Shown: one piece after another, positions 1-26,289 of the stretch
Numbering within the stretch: the stretch's first letter is position 1
How the letters are laid out: the number at the start of each line of letters is the position of its first letter
Virus record (IMG/VR): IMGVR_UViG_3300020474_000088
Span: 1 to 26,289 of that record
Origin: a virus
DNA: 26,289 nucleotides
Reading direction: 5' to 3' (one strand)
Notes under the pieces: model-generated
Databases searched by the model: none
What the model was told of the DNA's origin: nothing
The model's input: only the letters and a program-made list of their open reading frames with translations
Program-made: the position numbers and the translations under genes

Positions 1-614
1 GTAAGGGCATTTCTTAAAGGATCTGGGCCGGGAGCCTTACCTCCGCTAGACTTTAAATAAGAGCCTGCTGGACGTATTTTAGAGTAGTCAAAAATAACAG
101 TTTTACCATTGTACTCAGGGAAAAGATTATCTCCCTTAAAGTAACTAGAAACAAGAACACCTACTGCGTCTGACCATCCTTCAATAGAATCTTCAATAAC
201 AAATTTTTTCTGACTATTCTTACCCTTAATTAAGTTAGGTAATTTAGCGATGTGATGTTTTTGTACAGAAAATCCAGTTCCACATCCACACAGAAGAAGA
301 TACATACATTCTTGGAAAAATCTTGGCCTATCAATGTATGAAGAAATACAATTATACATCCTAGCATTATGCTTAAATATTGGAGATCCACCAAACTGTA
401 ACGCTCTTTGTGAACCTAATATTTTCTTCTTCTTCATATCATCGTATGCCTGATTGATAGCCTTGGTAACTTCTGGAGTGTCTCCATACTTATCAACCAT
501 CATCTGTCTTACTCTATCTACTGACTCTGCCCAAGTTTCTCTTCTTAATTTCTTTGAATCCCATCTTGCATATTTAGACACAAAAGTATAACTCATCAAT
601 GACTTTAGTGACAT
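1..614 (-). CDS. nrdJ: Adenosylcobalamin-dependent (class II) ribonucleotide reductase, N-terminal part
   Basis: Reduces ribonucleotides to deoxyribonucleotides for phage DNA synthesis, using adenosylcobalamin rather than a di-iron cofactor. The gene runs off the left edge, so only the first 204 residues are visible. They match the monomeric ribonucleoside-triphosphate reductase pattern: a TWAE helix (about 27-30), MYNC at 86-89 (Cys89 is the likely counterpart of the N-terminal redox cysteine, C119 in the Lactobacillus enzyme), the glycine-rich GCGTGFSV at 110-117, EGW near 145, and SSGGKAPGPDPLR at 189-201. The ATG at 614 follows AGGAG at good spacing; an inner ATG (residue 7) has no better site. 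The active-site loop cysteine and C-terminal cysteines lie outside the window, so an intact enzyme cannot be confirmed. Class I or III enzymes lack this NC...GTGFSV arrangement. Confidence 0.9.
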   Translation of the reverse strand, partial: MSLKSLMSYTFVSKYARWDSKKLRRETWAESVDRVRQMMVDKYGDTPEVTKAINQAYDDMKKKKILGSQRALQFGGSPIFKHNARMYNCISSYIDRPRFFQECMYLLLCGCGTGFSVQKHHIAKLPNLIKGKNSQKKFVIEDSIEGWSDAVGVLVSSYFKGDNLFPEYNGKTVIFDYSKIRPAGSYLKSSGGKAPGPDPLRNAL

Positions 615-7360: not shown

Positions 7361-8152
7361 TTAAACTATAACATATACTGTATTAGGATCTACAACAAAC
7401 GAAGCATCATCATATTCAGCCTGAGTAAGCTGCACAATTCTAGTAGCTCTAGAGACTGTATAATTAAGCCATCTACTATAGCTATCATCATACGTCATTA
7501 CTATGGTTTCTCCAGATGCTAAAACCATATCTTCAGAAGGTATATTATAAAACCTGTTATCACTAGTTGCAGTTGCACTATCATTAGCAAAAGTTACAGT
7601 GTGAGGGCCATTGTTTGAAACTGTTAATTGATTTTTATTATAATAACTTGTAGATAGTCCGTGAATATTTACGTCAGCTGTAGTTGTTACACGTAACACA
7701 TCTGCTTGAACTGGAGGAACCCAGTTAGATATATCGCTAGAACCTAGAGTGCAATGATTAGCTTTAACTCTAGTGTCTTCTATGGTAGCTACAGCTGATC
7801 CGTTATTAGTTATTGTGCCGTTGCAGGTAATGTCGCCAGAAACTACCACGTTACCATCGTCTAAATCTACACCCCCAACGCCGATATTAATATTGCCATT
7901 ACCAACGATATTATTATTATTTAACTTTAAGTCTCCATTAAGCACGGGATCATAATCCGAAGACACAGATATTGCAAAGCTGCCAATGCTATTAAGAGAA
8001 CCGAATTCTGTTACTCCATCTCCCACTTTTAATAATGCAGCGTCTGAAACGTAAGCTAATTCACCTTCGCCTAAGTATACAGGATCAGCTGCTTCCCACT
8101 CTGCTGTTGTACCTCTACGTATTTGTACTCTTGTCTTAGTGTAATCTGGCAC
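7361..8152 (-). CDS. Phage tail fibre/adhesin with Mtd_N-like attachment module
   Basis: A 263-residue fibre. Residues 9-56 match the N-terminal module of phage major tropism determinant-like proteins: VQIRRGTTAEWEAADP, then GELAYVSD and LKVGDGVTEFGSL. A repetitive beta region with asparagine- and glycine-rich turns follows (about 65-115, for example NNNNIVGNGNINIGVGG). A knob-like part at 170-240 has the frequent phage pattern 'tv.N.G.htvtf...tat.dnRFynip...L..GE.i...YDd..sRW'. The end (240-263) has VQLTQAEYDD then NTVYVIV, also seen in a neighbour. The start is GTG at 8152, with AAGGAG six bases upstream. It is followed by the LamG fibre gene after 10 bases. Likely a receptor-binding or baseplate fibre; trimerisation is inferred. 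Confidence 0.8.
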   Translation of the reverse strand: MPDYTKTRVQIRRGTTAEWEAADPVYLGEGELAYVSDAALLKVGDGVTEFGSLNSIGSFAISVSSDYDPVLNGDLKLNNNNIVGNGNINIGVGGVDLDDGNVVVSGDITCNGTITNNGSAVATIEDTRVKANHCTLGSSDISNWVPPVQADVLRVTTTADVNIHGLSTSYYNKNQLTVSNNGPHTVTFANDSATATSDNRFYNIPSEDMVLASGETIVMTYDDSYSRWLNYTVSRATRIVQLTQAEYDDASFVVDPNTVYVIV

Positions 8153-10057: not shown

Positions 10058-13000
10058 TCACTCTCCAAAAGGTTTTACTTGTGGTAAGATAGTATTACTG
10101 AAATTCCTTATATTAAATGTATTGTAATAGTCTCCGCTAGCTAAAGATAATTCATCAATATCAAAGTCGTAGAATGGAGTATCGCCAGAAGCTACCAAAA
10201 TATTAGTTACGTTATAAACTGTATTATCTATACCGCTAGCAACCAATGTTCCATTATGATATAGTTTAATTAGCTCTACATCGCTTGGGTTAGGTGTAGC
10301 TCCACTATTTCTAATTACTGCGATATGAGAATAATCTTCATGCCTTGATACAGAATTAAACTCTTGCTCAGGTGCTAGACCTCCAAAGGTCATCGTTGGC
10401 GTACTCATTATTAGAGCATCTCCACTATCATATACCTCAATTGAGTATCCAGTAGCATCTGTACCTTCGTATCGTAACCGTAGATAATCATACGTGTTAT
10501 CACGTAGCATAATAAGCGGAGAGTTTGCTTCTGCATAATTTCTTGGATTAAAGAAAAATTCTAAAGTAAACTGTTCCATTTGTGGTACGGAGCTTAGAGT
10601 ATTAAACTCTATACTGTCATGACGATATAATCTTAATGCTTCGCCACACTTTCCATCTAAGTATCTAGGAGCGTTTGTGAAAAAGCTAGTAGTTGTAGTG
10701 TAAGTAGATTCTTTATCACCTAAATCATTTTCGTCCAGATGACTATAGAACAATTGTTGAGCCGAACTGATACCTCTCCAGCTTGATCCTTTAGGGCTGA
10801 CTTGATTAGATGATTCTACTGCTAGACCAGACCCAGCTTTATTGACACCAGTTACCTTAGCTTTATAAGTCTTAGTATTATCTAGTCCGTCAATAACATA
10901 TTGGAATATGCCGTTCTCTACAGCCTCGCTATTGTTATCTCCAAAATGAGAACCAAACGCTAGATTGTCATATGTAATCCAGTTTGTTCCACCGTCTTCC
11001 GATAGTTCTATAATGTAGTTTGTTAGTCCCTCTTCGTATGCAGTTGCGTGAGCAAACTGAAGCAACAGTTGTCTATGACCAACTACGCTAGATGTGTCTG
11101 CATTTTTCAAAGAGACGTTACTTACAGGATTAGGATAGAAACAGAATACACTAAGATATGAGAAGTTGCCGTCAGCATAAATGTTTTCCCACAGTATGTC
11201 ACTATCTAGCCTAGTGGGAACGTCTCTGCTTAACTTGTCTCCTAACCCTAGTTGACCATGATCATTATCTCCAAAACACCATAAAGACCTAGTATTGTCT
11301 ATTAAGAATGAATGATCGCCACCAGCTTCTATTTTATCAACGTCTCCCTTAGTTATCCTGTAAGGTGAGTGTCTATTAATATTATCACCGATACCCAGTT
11401 GACCTTTATGATTTCTACCAAATGTCATTATTTGGTCTGTATCTGTTTTTAATATAGTATGATTTAATCCACACTTAGCGTCTTCTATATTGTATTTCGG
11501 AGTTTCATAGAATAGAATATTTTCTCCACCCATATAACCATGATACAAACAATATATACTGACTTTATCAAAATCATTAGTTACATTGACGTATACATCT
11601 CCGTAATAAAATTCATACTCTCCGTCTGCGGTCGTATTATATACCGTGGTACACCCTACTCTTGTGTCTCCATTATAACTTATAGCTGATTCTTTACCAC
11701 CATTAAGTATAGCGATTGGGTGAGTATCGGGAACGCCTTTGATGATATAGTTGCCTTTACCAAGTACAAATCTTTCTAATCCATTATATGATTTACCATC
11801 AGCGTAATTCAATACATAGAAATTTTTACCACTAATATTTTGTATTTGAATGTCACTTTCGGATGTTAGATCTGAGAAATTAGCATCGTCAATCTTAGAA
11901 AAATCAAAAAATATTCTTGTGGGAACATCTACGTGATTTTCGTTACCTAAAGCTAATTGACCATACTGATTATCTCCGAACCCAAAGACTCCACTTACGC
12001 CAGAAGTTGGAACAACGCTAGCTGATATAGCTATTGAATGATGACCTCCAGCAGATACGTCATGGAAATACTCGCTGCTGCTATATAGATTTCTATCGTT
12101 AAAGGATTCTATGTTTCGATAGTTAGATTCAGTATTGTCATCTCTATAATATCCTAGAACTTTTTGAGGGGATGTAGAGACTTCGTTGTGGTTTAAACCT
12201 TGTCCTAGCTGACCAAAAGAGTTATTTCCCCAAGAATAAAGCTCGCCTCTCTCTAAAGTGCCGCTTGTTCTTACAACACCCACAGAGTGATTACTTCCTG
12301 CGGAAACTGTTTTCCATACATTTCTCTCGTATCTTAAAATATTATTGGCGGTTGTATTAACTCCATCTCCAATTCCCAATAAATTAGCTGTGCCATAATT
12401 TCCAGACACATCAATAGATACATTACCGTAATAGTAATCATACCCATTAATTGTTGTATTTAGAGTACCAGTTATTGTGACAGTTGGTGTAACGCCATCA
12501 TCTAATGTAGTATCTCCATTAATTTGTAATGAAACACCACTTGTTGATGGGATAGTTCCTAAATTTGTAACCCCGGTGGGTGTGATAAATGAAAATTTAT
12601 CTGTTCCAGCTTCTTGCGTTTTATTTAATACATGTTTGTTTACGCCAGCTTGAGTTTGATCACTGTTAAGAGTAAAGAATCTTACACCACCACGAGTCCG
12701 TAAAAACTCTCTAGCACTATCATCAGTTATATTGTAATAATAAGCTTGATCACCTGAAAGAGTAAACTCTGTTCTTAATTCTTTATTACCAAGCCCTAAT
12801 TCTCCATAGGTATTATCTCCACAGGAAAATAATTGACCATCAGCACTAAGAGCTAAAGAAAATTGAGATCCACAGCTAACACCGCTCCAAGCAAAAGTAT
12901 TCGACACTAAATCTAACCCAGAAGCAAATACTTCACCATCTTGGAACAACGCTCTTTCTATAGGCGTAAAGTTCGTTCTGTTAGTTCCAACACCTTTATC

Positions 13001-13714
13001 TCCTAAACCTAACTGTCCGTAGTAGTTATATCCAACGCTGTATAGTTTTTTAGTATTACCAATACCCAAGCCGTGATAATGACCCGCTGCAAAGTCTGTC
13101 CATTTTTTACCACCATCATATACTAGCTTTGGTACATCCACTGACTTTTTATCGCCTTGTGCTAATTGTCCAAAGTCGTTTTGTCCAAATGAATATACAT
13201 CTTCTATAATTGGTGGAGGGGTTGTGGTGGTTGTTGTTGGTTCTACATAAGGATTAATGATATTAATTAATAAGTGTAACTTTACATTCGATGTAGGAGT
13301 AGAAAAGTTTGAACTTGTATTGCCATCAACTGTTGAGTTATCTATATTTGTAAATACAATATCTATAGAATTGTCTGCCGACACATGGGCGTATCTTATA
13401 TCTATATAATCTGGGATAGAAACTTCTGGTGCTACCAGTATAGAATATTCATCATTGCTATCAATACCGGCTACAGTTACAGTAACAGTATGTGATGTAT
13501 TAGATTGTATAGCTGGCAAATCTACAAGAACAGTAGTAACTCTAGAAGCTCCAACTATGGGTAGATCTCTCCATGCACTAATACCATTACCGATCTTTAA
13601 CTCATTAAAGTCAACCGCAAAAGCTGGCTCCCCATGTTTTAATATAGGATTATGAGAATCAAGTTTAGCTTTAGTATCTCTTCGTAATTGGATGTGTTGA
13701 AATTGTGACGACAT
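10058..13714 (-). CDS. Giant modular tail fibre: Mtd_N-like, RCC1 propeller, FN3, LamG
   Basis: 1218 residues. Residues 8-55 are the adhesin attachment module (IQLRRDTKAKLDS, FNELKIGNGISAW). A beta region and a Thr/Pro linker (158-169) lead to seven RCC1-type repeats with cores near 173, 224, 295, 492, 576, 762 and 811, each of the form 'lysfG.N.yGQLGlGd'. Seven is the number of blades in an RCC1 propeller. Two insertions of about 110-140 residues interrupt it: at 323-463 and 629-737. The second has His665, Cys722, His725 and Met728, a cupredoxin-like ligand set. A fibronectin III domain follows (about 862-976), then a LamG domain (about 985-1190, with FTLEFFFNPRN and YSHIAVIRN). The start overlaps the protease stop (TAATG at 13714) with GAGG upstream. 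It is almost certainly a receptor-binding virion protein; the use of the propeller and copper site is inference. Confidence 0.88.
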   Translation of the reverse strand: MSSQFQHIQLRRDTKAKLDSHNPILKHGEPAFAVDFNELKIGNGISAWRDLPIVGASRVTTVLVDLPAIQSNTSHTVTVTVAGIDSNDEYSILVAPEVSIPDYIDIRYAHVSADNSIDIVFTNIDNSTVDGNTSSNFSTPTSNVKLHLLINIINPYVEPTTTTTTPPPIIEDVYSFGQNDFGQLAQGDKKSVDVPKLVYDGGKKWTDFAAGHYHGLGIGNTKKLYSVGYNYYGQLGLGDKGVGTNRTNFTPIERALFQDGEVFASGLDLVSNTFAWSGVSCGSQFSLALSADGQLFSCGDNTYGELGLGNKELRTEFTLSGDQAYYYNITDDSAREFLRTRGGVRFFTLNSDQTQAGVNKHVLNKTQEAGTDKFSFITPTGVTNLGTIPSTSGVSLQINGDTTLDDGVTPTVTITGTLNTTINGYDYYYGNVSIDVSGNYGTANLLGIGDGVNTTANNILRYERNVWKTVSAGSNHSVGVVRTSGTLERGELYSWGNNSFGQLGQGLNHNEVSTSPQKVLGYYRDDNTESNYRNIESFNDRNLYSSSEYFHDVSAGGHHSIAISASVVPTSGVSGVFGFGDNQYGQLALGNENHVDVPTRIFFDFSKIDDANFSDLTSESDIQIQNISGKNFYVLNYADGKSYNGLERFVLGKGNYIIKGVPDTHPIAILNGGKESAISYNGDTRVGCTTVYNTTADGEYEFYYGDVYVNVTNDFDKVSIYCLYHGYMGGENILFYETPKYNIEDAKCGLNHTILKTDTDQIMTFGRNHKGQLGIGDNINRHSPYRITKGDVDKIEAGGDHSFLIDNTRSLWCFGDNDHGQLGLGDKLSRDVPTRLDSDILWENIYADGNFSYLSVFCFYPNPVSNVSLKNADTSSVVGHRQLLLQFAHATAYEEGLTNYIIELSEDGGTNWITYDNLAFGSHFGDNNSEAVENGIFQYVIDGLDNTKTYKAKVTGVNKAGSGLAVESSNQVSPKGSSWRGISSAQQLFYSHLDENDLGDKESTYTTTTSFFTNAPRYLDGKCGEALRLYRHDSIEFNTLSSVPQMEQFTLEFFFNPRNYAEANSPLIMLRDNTYDYLRLRYEGTDATGYSIEVYDSGDALIMSTPTMTFGGLAPEQEFNSVSRHEDYSHIAVIRNSGATPNPSDVELIKLYHNGTLVASGIDNTVYNVTNILVASGDTPFYDFDIDELSLASGDYYNTFNIRNFSNTILPQVKPFGE
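11504..11830 (-). other. Insertion 2 in RCC1 propeller: cupredoxin-like domain with complete ligand set
   Basis: Residues about 629-737 of the fibre. THPIAIL around His665 and IYCLYHGYMGG with Cys722, His725 and Met728 give the order His ... Cys-x2-His-x2-Met, the ligand order and loop spacing of amicyanin-type type-1 copper sites. The pattern also resembles the 'HP.rf ... yyyC..HsgMGG' module that I recall from other marine phage fibres. Copper binding is an inference. Confidence 0.6.
12326..12748 (-). other. Insertion 1 in RCC1 propeller: cupredoxin-like fold without metal ligands
   Basis: Residues about 323-463 of the fibre. The end of this insert (YYYGNVSIDV ... NILRYE) aligns with the end of the second insert (FYYGDVYVNV ... 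NILFYE), so the two are probably copies of one domain. This copy has no cysteine and lacks the C-x2-H-x2-M loop, so it should not bind copper. Confidence 0.6.
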
Positions 13715-14634
13715 TAAAATACCTCATCTATAGTCCAATCGACTTTTCTAGGGGGGAAACCATCTACATCGCTATATGCCCAAGCTCCGTTTTGATTAAG
13801 CATACCTCTCGCGTCTTTTTCTCTAACCCAAAAACTACCGTCTGGTTGATCATGTCTCTTAGGACCGCCATTAAATGCGCCCCAACTATTCTGTATTAAA
13901 AACAAAGTTTCATTATGAATTTCTCTACTATCATCCATCGCCGTCCATGACATCGCGTGATTCCATGACCCGCTCCTGCGGGCTATGCCATGTTCATTAC
14001 GGCGTGAGGAAAATCCATAATTACTACAGACACTTAAAGCATACCCATTAGCTATAGCATCTCTTGCTTCCTCTACAGATTTGATCATACTAATAGTTTT
14101 GACTTGATGTTTTTTACCTTCATCTTTTACTTCTTTTGGCACTCCTGATCTTCCCCAGTTTGTACCAATCCTGCTATTATATTTAGTAAAATCTACAAAT
14201 CCATAATCTTTTCTGACTAATATACCACCGTTTTGGTGGACAAATCTAGCAGCTACAGAGCATGACATTCCTTGACCACCATGACCTCTTGAGCCATAGA
14301 TAGCTTCAGTTGCGCCTCTTGCTACAAAATCTTCTGCTTCTCCACCAATAATTTCATGACACCTAGTTGCATCTACTGCATTTCTAGTTGCATGTGAGAC
14401 GCAATCTCCTGTAGTCTGTCGCTCATGCGCTCCAAACGTAGGATCATATTTCTGCACTGATTTGTATAATAAAGCTACCTTTCCTTCTCCACTGCTATAT
14501 AAATTAGAAGCTGCCGCCCCAAAAAGCGGGTGCGGCAGTTCCCCTAACAACTTGTCGGTATCTTCAGGATCACACCATGAGCCTACAAAACCATCTTTGT
14601 AAGCTCTTAGTAAATCTGTTGGTTTTTCAAACAT
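13714..14634 (-). CDS. Papain-like cysteine protease (C1-type fold)
   Basis: 306 residues. The catalytic pattern of papain-family peptidases is complete: Gln73 and Cys78 in RQTTGDCVSHATRN (oxyanion glutamine and nucleophile), His226 in SGSWNHAMSW, and Asn249 in FLIQNSWG. A GGQGMSCSVAARFV stretch near 118-132 resembles the central glycine-rich segment of C1 enzymes. No signal peptide or propeptide is evident. It lies between a holin-sized membrane protein and the giant fibre, overlapping the fibre start by one base (TAATG). Candidate roles are a lysis or entry enzyme acting on envelope protein or peptide, or maturation of virion proteins. Both are inference; the fold assignment is firm. CGGAG precedes the ATG at 14634. 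Confidence 0.85.
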   Translation of the reverse strand: MFEKPTDLLRAYKDGFVGSWCDPEDTDKLLGELPHPLFGAAASNLYSSGEGKVALLYKSVQKYDPTFGAHERQTTGDCVSHATRNAVDATRCHEIIGGEAEDFVARGATEAIYGSRGHGGQGMSCSVAARFVHQNGGILVRKDYGFVDFTKYNSRIGTNWGRSGVPKEVKDEGKKHQVKTISMIKSVEEARDAIANGYALSVCSNYGFSSRRNEHGIARRSGSWNHAMSWTAMDDSREIHNETLFLIQNSWGAFNGGPKRHDQPDGSFWVREKDARGMLNQNGAWAYSDVDGFPPRKVDWTIDEVF

Positions 14635-23525: not shown

Positions 23526-25471
23526 TAATATCCTCCTATGAACGCATTAATAGATTTTACCATATTCGATACAGAGAATTTATCAATGTTAAAATCCTTT
23601 AGATAATGATAAGCATCTATAATGTTGTCCTCTATCAATAGATATCTAATATCTACATTGTCATCATAGAATAGTGGATATTCTGAGCCTAAATATTCTT
23701 CGCAGGCTGGTGATCTATTTAACAAGATTGGGCAATGCCTCTGTATGGCGTTAATTATGGCGTTATTTGCAGAACTATCATACAAATTTAAGAATATTAT
23801 ATTTTTAGTCAGTAATTGATTTAATTCTTGGTCAGATAATTTTGGAGCCACTTTAGTAGTACGATGAGATATTCCATGATATTCCATATCTGCATTAAAT
23901 ACTTCATACTTATAATCTTCTTCCCCTCCAAACACAAATAGCTTTTCATGATCTTGCACATCCAGCTTCTCAAAGAAACCAAAATTTCTATTAAACCATC
24001 CAAGGTTAATTAATTTTTTATTACCATTATCTAGGTATTTATCTATAGAAAACTTAGGGCAAGCGACATCTGGCATAATAGGATGATGTACTACACCCAA
24101 CCTTTTGTTTTGTAGATGTATTAAGTTTGAATTAGTTTCCATAGTGTGCTGAGAAGTAAATAATATTCCTTTACACTTCTCGTCCAATAGCCCAGATTCA
24201 TTTAACTTGTCATAGAAAGAACTGATCGTAGGGCTTGAAGGCAAAACGTCTGCGTAATATTCAGGGCAGTAATTGACAAGATGTTCTATGCCGTACCACT
24301 CTGATGACCATAATTTATCGGGATATGACTGATAAGACTCCCACAAAAATGTAATTAAATTCTCGCTCCTATCTTTTGTCCACATCCTATCTAACTCATC
24401 ATTTACAGACCCCCATCCACCATGCAAGTGTCTTTTATGATTATTAGATAATATAATTCTAAAGTTTTTAAATTCATCGTCACTTAAAAAGTCTGACATT
24501 ACTACATGATCTACAGTGTCTGATACCTTTTTAGGTGCTAGCACATAGTTTTTCTTTGATGGATAGTTTGGATTAATACAAGGCTCAACAAAACATATTG
24601 CCCCTACTAAAGCATCTGTTTTAACATTGTAGTTTCTGTGACCATCTCTGTGTTTATGGTATGATTTAATATGATAACAAGGATTGAATATATCAAATCC
24701 ACGACAAGCAAACTTGTAGGCAATTTTATTATCACACCTTGGTTTACCAGTTGGGGTATCTAAGGATGACATAAAATCTATATTATTTATAGTATTAGAA
24801 TGTAATGCCCAAGTATCTTGTGACCACTTGGGATTATTAATTACCTTATAGTCTCCGGCCTGATTCCTATCATATCTCGAAAGACATACTACGCTATTCT
24901 CTTTATCTGTAAAGCCTCTGACCTGTTCAATTGTATGATCAAAATATATGTCAGCATTACAAAAAACAGAGATGTATTTTTTTTCTTTAATTATATTCTT
25001 AGAGGATAATATCCAATCAGCATACGTTGGAGTTTTATTATCTATAGTTATATAAGTTATCTTAGGATTTCTTTTTAGAAAATCTGGACGCTCTGTTCCA
25101 ACTGTAATCAATACATATACGTGATGTATACTATTATTGGTTACATTCTTTTCGAGGCAATAGTCTATTTCGTGCTGACGACGATCATCCTTGTAATATG
25201 TGGTAAACAAATATATATTTTCATCACTAAAACCACTGAGTAAAACTAAGTCTTGATCTACAGTATCTTGTAAGTTACTTGCGAAACCAAAGTTTTTACC
25301 ATACAGATGGTAGTGATAAAATAATCTATGTCTATCGTCTATTCCTGAATCTGAGCAAAAAGGTTGATAGAAATCTTTAGTGTCTGGAAAAGAGTGTTGA
25401 TAAAATTTTTCATCGAAATTATCATCTATTACATTTGTTTTGTAAAATTCCAGAATGTTTAATTCTTGCAT
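23525..25471 (-). CDS. Two-domain glycosyltransferase (GT-A-like plus GT-B-like)
   Basis: About 648 residues. The N-terminus has a 'FDEKFYQHSFPD ... HYHLYGKNFG' segment (about 20-62) often found in front of glycosyltransferase domains. A GT-A-like part follows (about 85-290) with a TPTYADWI strand-loop and an acidic ISVFCNADIYFD (169-180 or nearby) in place of DXD. The C-terminal half (about 330-640) looks like a GT-B donor part: KKLINLGWFNRN, KLFVFGG, then IFLNLYDSSANNAIINAIQR and CPILLNRSPACEEYLG. I choose ATG 25471, which overlaps the GMP reductase stop as TAATG; a longer frame to 25522 lies inside that gene. It probably builds a glycan on the virion or cell surface; substrates unknown. 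Confidence 0.75.
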   Translation of the reverse strand: MQELNILEFYKTNVIDDNFDEKFYQHSFPDTKDFYQPFCSDSGIDDRHRLFYHYHLYGKNFGFASNLQDTVDQDLVLLSGFSDENIYLFTTYYKDDRRQHEIDYCLEKNVTNNSIHHVYVLITVGTERPDFLKRNPKITYITIDNKTPTYADWILSSKNIIKEKKYISVFCNADIYFDHTIEQVRGFTDKENSVVCLSRYDRNQAGDYKVINNPKWSQDTWALHSNTINNIDFMSSLDTPTGKPRCDNKIAYKFACRGFDIFNPCYHIKSYHKHRDGHRNYNVKTDALVGAICFVEPCINPNYPSKKNYVLAPKKVSDTVDHVVMSDFLSDDEFKNFRIILSNNHKRHLHGGWGSVNDELDRMWTKDRSENLITFLWESYQSYPDKLWSSEWYGIEHLVNYCPEYYADVLPSSPTISSFYDKLNESGLLDEKCKGILFTSQHTMETNSNLIHLQNKRLGVVHHPIMPDVACPKFSIDKYLDNGNKKLINLGWFNRNFGFFEKLDVQDHEKLFVFGGEEDYKYEVFNADMEYHGISHRTTKVAPKLSDQELNQLLTKNIIFLNLYDSSANNAIINAIQRHCPILLNRSPACEEYLGSEYPLFYDDNVDIRYLLIEDNIIDAYHYLKDFNIDKFSVSNMVKSINAFIGGY

Positions 25472-26289
25472 TATGTACTCTGATCGAAATGAGTTCTGTT
25501 GACCAAGTTGAATTCTGCGCATTTGTTCATGTCTTTGAGCTTTGTCGCTCCGATATACGCACAGGCGCTACGCAGACCGCCTAATACATCTAATATAATA
25601 TCCTTTGCTGGGCCTTTGTATGGCACTTCTTTTACACGACCTTCGCTTGCTCTGTAATCTTTTACTCCACCGTACTTTGACTGAGCTTCGCTTGAAGACA
25701 TACCGTAAAACTTTAGGGACGTTCTAACCATCTTATGGTGATAGTCATGCTTACCATCCGATATCCACTCGTATTGCCAATCGCCCTCGCATTCATACGC
25801 TCCAGCTAACATGCCACCCAGCATAACAAAGTCTGCCCCAGCAGCAAATGCTTTGCATACATCAGCAGGAGTCCTGCAACCACCATCAGCACAAACTAAT
25901 CCTAATCTGCCATCTCCGTTTCGTAACCCATGAGCTGCGTGACTACACTCTATTATAGCAGATAATTGAGGAAATCCCACACCTGTTTTCAGTCTGGTTG
26001 TACAAGCAGATCCGGGTCCAATGCCTATCTTAACAATGTCTACTCCACCGTGTAAAATTAATTCTTGTACCATCTCTGGAGTGCAAACATTACCCGCCAT
26101 TATGATAGTATGTTTACTTACATGTCTTCTTACTCTATGGCAGAAGTCAACAAAGTCGTCTGTATAACCATTAGCTACATCTATACAGATATTAGGATTC
26201 ATACCTGACTTCTCTTTAAACTCATTATACTTAAAAATATCTGCGTCTTTAATACCTATACTATACCATTGAGTTTCAGGGTAATATAA
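25471..26289 (-). CDS. guaC: GMP reductase, 5' end outside the window
   Basis: At least 272 residues; the frame remains open to the right edge. Converts GMP to IMP with NADPH. Diagnostic blocks: NICIDVANGYTDDFV, KIGIGPGSACTTRLKTGVG with the catalytic cysteine in the SACTTR loop, PQLSAIIECSHAAHGL, CADGGCRTPADVCKAF, FVMLGGMLAG, KFYGMSSSEAQ and KDYRASEGR, and LGGLRSACAYIGA. The 'FYGMSS ... YRASEGR' part fits GMP reductase rather than IMP dehydrogenase, and no CBS insert is visible. The reading before residue 30 (SIGIKDADIFKYNEF) also matches. Overlaps the next gene by TAATG. A purine-salvage gene is unusual in phages; it may raise IMP for adenine or guanine deoxynucleotides. Confidence 0.92.
   Translation of the reverse strand, partial: LYYPETQWYSIGIKDADIFKYNEFKEKSGMNPNICIDVANGYTDDFVDFCHRVRRHVSKHTIIMAGNVCTPEMVQELILHGGVDIVKIGIGPGSACTTRLKTGVGFPQLSAIIECSHAAHGLRNGDGRLGLVCADGGCRTPADVCKAFAAGADFVMLGGMLAGAYECEGDWQYEWISDGKHDYHHKMVRTSLKFYGMSSSEAQSKYGGVKDYRASEGRVKEVPYKGPAKDIILDVLGGLRSACAYIGATKLKDMNKCAEFNLVNRTHFDQST

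Follow-up and report, generated by a model that had tools for sequence, protein, structure and literature searches.

A cupredoxin-like domain with a predicted type-1 copper-kind site in an RCC1 tail-fibre-like protein of a virus fragment and in marine phage relatives

The stretch of DNA analysed in this work (the window; 26,289 nucleotides of the virus record IMGVR_UViG_3300020474_000088 of IMG/VR) carries on its minus strand a gene for a long tail-fibre-like protein, organized as follows:

10058..13714, minus strand: tail-fibre-like gene, 1218 aa, with Mtd_N, seven RCC1 repeats, two cupredoxin-like inserts, a weak fn3 domain and a C-terminal region
13580..13693, minus strand: Mtd_N (major tropism determinant N-terminal domain), residues 8-45 (Pfam PF18454, E 3.8e-10)
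12779..13201, minus strand: RCC1 repeats 1-3, residues 172-312 (Pfam RCC1 / WD40_RLD)
12311..12640, minus strand: insert 1, a ligand-less second copy of the domain, residues ~359-468 (ligand columns S, G, D, N)
11915..12289, minus strand: RCC1 repeats 4-5, residues ~476-600 (motif starts 496, 579)
11486..11860, minus strand: insert 2, cupredoxin-like domain with His-Cys-His-Met, residues 619-743 (HMM i-E 2e-42)
11198..11491, minus strand: RCC1 repeats 6-7, residues 742-839 (PHROG 7220 match 742-839; motif starts 765, 814)
10826..11083, minus strand: fibronectin type III-like domain, residues 878-963 (Pfam E 1.8e-4)

PHROG tail proteins match the N-terminus of the fibre at the same place as Mtd_N, and Pfam recognises RCC1 with an E-value of 2.9e-58, the RCC1-type motifs starting at residues 176, 228, 299, 496, 579, 765 and 814. 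The fn3 match reaches 22.1 bits, under the Pfam cut-off of 25. The combination of Mtd_N, RCC1 and weak fn3, together with the annotation of relatives of the A-type (described below) as tail fibres, is that of a fibre or adhesin. The window would belong to a tailed phage, an assignment that rests on the fibre domains, the PHROG matches and the status of the record as viral; protein-family scans recognised no hallmark packaging genes in this 26-kb virus fragment. Adjoining the fibre, a 306-aa protein (13714-14634, minus strand) resembles by eye a papain-like cysteine peptidase (GDCVSHA, NHAMSW, IQNSWG), and Pfam and PHROG searches gave no match for it. A second Mtd_N protein (7361-8152, minus strand) shows a weak Copper-bind match (E 0.0012); it was rejected as a cupredoxin because it has no Cys-His-Met motif and a Pfam phage depolymerase-type sandwich matches the same place, so that its C-terminal part is probably a sandwich of that type. 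Two further genes are related to nucleotide metabolism, an IMPDH-family protein (25471-26202, minus strand; E 1.7e-52) and a fragment of a B12-dependent ribonucleotide reductase (3-614, minus strand).

Insert 2 lies between RCC1 copies 5 and 6, where the first-pass annotation of this DNA had placed it and in agreement with the motif starts at 579 and 765, although the domain, of ~125 residues (~619-743, window 11486-11860), proved slightly larger than the interval 11504-11830 given at first. The same annotation had pointed to four residues as a complete set of type-1 copper ligands, and all of them were found at their positions in the 1218-aa reading frame:

11720..11722, minus strand: His665, first predicted ligand, in the HP[IF]A motif
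11549..11551, minus strand: Cys722, predicted thiolate ligand
11540..11542, minus strand: His725, second predicted His ligand
11531..11533, minus strand: Met728, predicted axial ligand (MGG)

The motif YC..H..MGG occurs once in the window and in 0/100 shuffles. The ligand loop reads CLYHGYM, that of amicyanin CTPHPFM, both with Cys-x2-His-x2-Met spacing, and in the predicted structure the residues follow the type-1 order His...Cys-xn-His-xn-Met, at the start of a strand, where the penultimate strand ends, and in the loop after it. Insert 1, between RCC1 copies 3 and 4, is a diverged copy of the same domain (E 9.6e-5 and 26% identity against insert 2; HMM i-E 4e-7) in which the predicted site is gone, and it would provide a natural negative control for copper binding within one fibre.

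The two nearest relatives are L176 (82% identical by tblastn over the ligand-bearing domain) and L177 (~55%), and in both of them insert 2 has all four ligands intact; in insert 1 of L177 the ligand columns are N, S, D and C. Between the window and L177 identity is 55% for insert 2 and 32% for insert 1 and synonymous sites are saturated. Since the ligands are kept in insert 2 at this divergence, selection has maintained them.

The modules with the motif 'C..HsgMGG', which that annotation had mentioned for other marine phage adhesins, are real: scans of IMG/VR DNA found YC..H.GMGG in at least 120 stretches and YC..H.YMGG in 51, and, among the matches listed, nearly all the stretches from both scans encode a like domain with an upstream H-P. 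The putative copper-type site, considered at first to be unusual in a fibre, is instead widespread among marine phages. Two subfamilies were distinguished, A-type (GHPLRFSTTSDGTHGGG...YYYCTNHSGMGG, also written 'HPLRFSTTSDGTHGGG...YYYCTNHSGMGG') and B-type (GVPS.HPIAILN...YNFYYGDVTITV..DFG..SYYC..HGYMGG), the window domain being of the B-type. Their profiles match at 97.6% (E 2.9e-12), and still at 91.6% (E 8e-7) with the His, Cys and Met columns masked, so that this homology is independent of the ligands. A-type domains are present in 135 isolate phage records, marine by name as far as listed (Synechococcus, Prochlorococcus and other cyanophages, Pelagibacter, Methylophilales, marine virus records and two unnamed phages) and often annotated as tail fibre or virion structural protein; the B-type search of isolate phage records gave no match. 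Matches in a viral structure library came from Aureococcus anophagefferens virus, cyanophages and Mimiviridae sp. ChoanoV1. A search for a cellular origin in 84,980 genomes yielded only three loci, one phage-like contig and two marine Euryarchaeota, and the B-type domain was absent from 96 further genomes of the archaeal family (1/97 positive). One of these loci (L238:3515-6640) encodes a marine euryarchaeal surface protein of 1041 aa with a pilin-like N-terminus and one B-type domain, alongside which it bears, at its C-terminus, an undisputed amicyanin-like cupredoxin (CQPHPSM). Searches of Pfam families, PHROGs and PDB sequences gave no match for the B-type domain, PHROGs places A-type members only within whole tail-protein families, and literature searches of partial coverage returned no relevant paper on cupredoxins in phage or virion proteins. 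None of eight related contigs had a match to phrog_2, the large-terminase family, a result of little weight since all of them are fragments. Judged by sequence, the domain family is common in marine virus fibres, with no Pfam or PHROGs family for its B-type.

As the motif scans are circular for the conservation of Cys, His and Met, they were replaced by a search with the N-terminal half of the domain (alignment A1, which ends before the Cys; 61 loci). C..H..M was present in 64 of the 70 copies located by the HP motif in these loci. When all copies in the 61 loci and the window were taken together at 90% non-redundancy, 32 of the resulting 42 had all four residues, six had none and four were partial (HCDM twice, HGGM and HGEM), and Met was retained in every copy that retains His, Cys and His. 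Of the other invariant positions, most are kept in the six ligand-less copies (Gly 6/6, Pro 5/6, Tyr 5/6, Gly 6/6), which suggests that the four residues act as a single site and that the fold is retained without it. These six copies correspond to about three independent events (two homologous pairs in L186/L179 and one pair in window/L177), and Fisher values on copy counts are consequently too optimistic. In the A-type, for which only Cys/His/Met had been selected, the first His is kept in 117 of 118 copies. Among isolate phages, nine checked domains are intact, the motif is lacking in PSS2, S-E7 and the second Syn1 copy, and the S-SZBM1 match keeps the first His but ends without the C..H..M loop. 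Poor conservation among homologues had been named beforehand as evidence against the site; what emerged was conservation of the ligands as a set in copies not selected for them, and the four residues tend, by their sequence record, to stay or disappear jointly while the fold is preserved. Other arrangements of the domain were also observed: L178/L179 have, within one adhesin, a tandem of four B-type copies in which the site is lost to different degrees (YYQL, QSNA, HCDM, HCHM), in L155 and L239 a B-type domain harbours an A-type domain that has an HP...C..H..M set of its own, a cupredoxin nested in a cupredoxin, and a stand-alone 112-aa gene of cyanophage PSS2 (GQ334450.1, 63255-63593; L247) consists of an A-type domain without ligands.

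Structure prediction had been proposed as a check, and AlphaFold2 gave for residues 612-746, with 56 sequences, a confident all-beta domain (pLDDT 93.7, pTM 0.86) with the predicted ligands at canonical cupredoxin positions along the strands: His665 just ahead of a strand, Cys722 closing the penultimate strand, and His725 and Met728 in the next loop. A fold that sets the four residues far apart had been named as the other condition against the site, and the model shows them in cupredoxin order. In the search against PDB suggested at the same time, the top Foldseek matches of the window domain were nearly all cupredoxins (CueO, laccases, Cu nitrite reductase and plantacyanin among its fold neighbours), but these were weak (best E 0.058, TM at most 0.48), and significance was reached only by the A-type relative (pLDDT 92.5), which matched rusticyanin (E 3.3e-5, probability 1.00) and then pseudoazurin, AcoP and amicyanin. 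In profile comparisons the A-type matched undisputed cupredoxins at 92.7% (E 4.3e-7) with all four ligands in register, and 100 column shuffles of this comparison reached at most 2.2%. Since masking the ligand columns removes the match (0.9%), it rests on the motif, and the independent support for the A-type as a cupredoxin comes from the match of its predicted fold. B-type profiles compared directly with cupredoxins gave a weak 3.9%, neither phmmer nor hmmsearch of PDB found a cupredoxin with the window domain or with the B profile, and PF00127 (Copper-bind) matched neither the window domain nor any of 15 B-type members. The best E-value of the A-type against PF00127 was 6e-4 among 53 members, with 15-16 bits against a cut-off of 21.2 for the member shown. 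E-values near 1e-3 against Copper-bind were set aside as uninformative, because a window protein without the Cys-His-Met motif also gives one. The window domain would be connected to cupredoxins by its own weak fold match, by its strong homology to the A-type and by the fold match of the A-type; we describe it as a putative cupredoxin-like domain in a new setting which, by the cut-off, falls outside PF00127.

We consider it probable, with limited confidence, that insert 2 is a divergent cupredoxin borne on an RCC1-propeller fibre, with a predicted site of the type-1 copper kind and a structural or adhesive role. In this model, His665, Cys722, His725 and Met728 would form one mononuclear site of that kind; the fibre would be made in the host and the site would take up copper when the virion meets it, at lysis or in seawater, and the bound metal would lock the ligand loop and the sandwich of an adhesin module exposed at the surface. 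The fold may be a reusable adhesin part and the metal site an added property that selection keeps in most copies. Indeed, the fold should have a use of its own, because copies without the site persist, and the site a further use, because most copies keep it. The module is found in four tandem copies in L178, inserted in RCC1 propellers, in the pilin-like archaeal surface protein of L238 and nested in L155 and L239. We infer that a metal is bound, that this metal is copper and that its role is structural or adhesive rather than electron transfer; attachment-related roles are possible for an adhesin module that holds copper, and copper would presumably enter after lysis or in seawater. It counts against the copper reading that the folding of phage fibres takes place in the cytoplasm, which contains very little free copper.

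The same site may bind another metal, zinc or, opportunistically, Ni, Co, Ag or Hg, as a structural metal site on a cupredoxin fold. The co-conservation of the ligands as a set would be expected of such a site too, no copper-handling gene was recognised in the window by protein-family scans, and cupredoxin sites take up zinc on heterologous expression. We nonetheless regard this as unlikely, since an axial Met thioether with Cys-x2-His-x2-Met spacing is the arrangement of copper proteins, as the alignment with amicyanin indicates, and Met is kept wherever His, Cys and His are kept. We also think it improbable that the domain is a metal-free, vestigial cupredoxin serving as an Ig-like adhesin module, with Cys, His, His and Met engaged in core packing or hydrogen bonds. 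The persistence of ligand-less copies (insert 1 of the window, copies 1-2 of L178/L179, PSS2 and S-E7) is in line with such a module, as is the equal conservation of the MGG/GYMGG residues that flank the ligands; against it, the residues are retained or lost jointly (32, 6 and 4 of 42) and the ligand-less copies still have other invariant residues of the core.

The direct interaction of secreted azurin with OprC, a TonB-dependent copper transporter (PMC6907878), is a precedent for the docking of a cupredoxin on a receptor, and HxH iron sites are one for metal in tail fibres (PMC11705849). A holo domain might likewise mimic a copper-carrying protein and dock on an outer-membrane copper transporter, as a copper counterpart of the 'Ferrojan Horse', and the 135 isolate records of the A-type, marine by name as far as listed and many of them tail fibre or virion structural proteins, would suit this proposal. 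It seems very unlikely to us, given that nothing ties the domain to a receptor, that the hosts are diverse (cyanobacteria, SAR11, Methylophilales), that some proteins have site-less copies only, and that virion and baseplate proteins with no known receptor contact are matched by the domain as well. A redox role, in electron transfer or in the sensing or scavenging of reactive oxygen by the fibre, would suit the ligand set, which is that of electron-transfer cupredoxins, but is the least probable of all, as protein-family scans recognised no partner domain in or beside the fibre and the Cys and the second His are separated by two variable residues, with no conserved docking patch apparent there. 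As the scans of the window revealed no gene for a redox partner, a metal-stabilised adhesin module that holds copper is favoured.

If the site of this adhesin module is filled, copper-binding surface domains would be common in marine virus adhesins and unlabelled in current libraries, virus attachment would gain a concrete metal-dependent step, parallel to the iron-in-tail-fibre proposal, and virions would join the marine copper ligand pool. A broader reading, that marine virus particles commonly bear type-1-like copper centres on their fibres for copper-dependent attachment or as a copper lure, and virions are thus a copper ligand of seawater, seems doubtful to us; it would take in phages and, by predicted structure match, algal and other large viruses. 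Even without copper, this is a large cupredoxin-like adhesin family without a Pfam name.

Among known systems, amicyanin has the same His...Cys-x2-His-x2-Met order as the window domain, and amicyanin and plastocyanin (PF00127) share with it a Cys that closes the penultimate strand, a following loop that holds the other ligands and an aromatic residue just before the Cys. In contrast to them, the window domain has Pro after the first His, where PDB sequences read PHN (Asn), and an invariant MGG, and it resides in virion fibres instead of a periplasmic or thylakoid carrier. The term 'amicyanin-type', as first applied here, appears right for the loop spacing only, since PDB sequence searches support neither homology to amicyanins nor membership of the family. 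The ligand loop of rusticyanin, C-x4-H-x4-M, differs in length from that of the A-type. Rusticyanin, AcoP and pseudoazurin (PDB 2cak, 7z3b, 1adw) are the closest solved folds to the A-type (E 3e-5 to 5e-3), but with a TM of ~0.5 only, and they have no virion role. The At5g54830-like domain (PF25489, named after a plant protein) was matched by 3 of 53 A-type members, one of them with 28.7 bits against a cut-off of 27. The A-type itself, in tail proteins of cyanophages, pelagiphages and Methylophilales phages, has the four residues in register with the B-type and the same virion context, whereas the middle region differs, the B-type having an added YNFYYGDVTITV hairpin. Finally, iron HxH sites have been described in phage tail fibres, those of T4 gp37 and of marine phages (PMC11705849), likewise a transition-metal site proposed in marine phage fibres; there, His pairs along a trimeric fibre hold the iron, whereas the predicted site of the window would be formed by Cys, His and Met of one chain, within a folded domain of its own.
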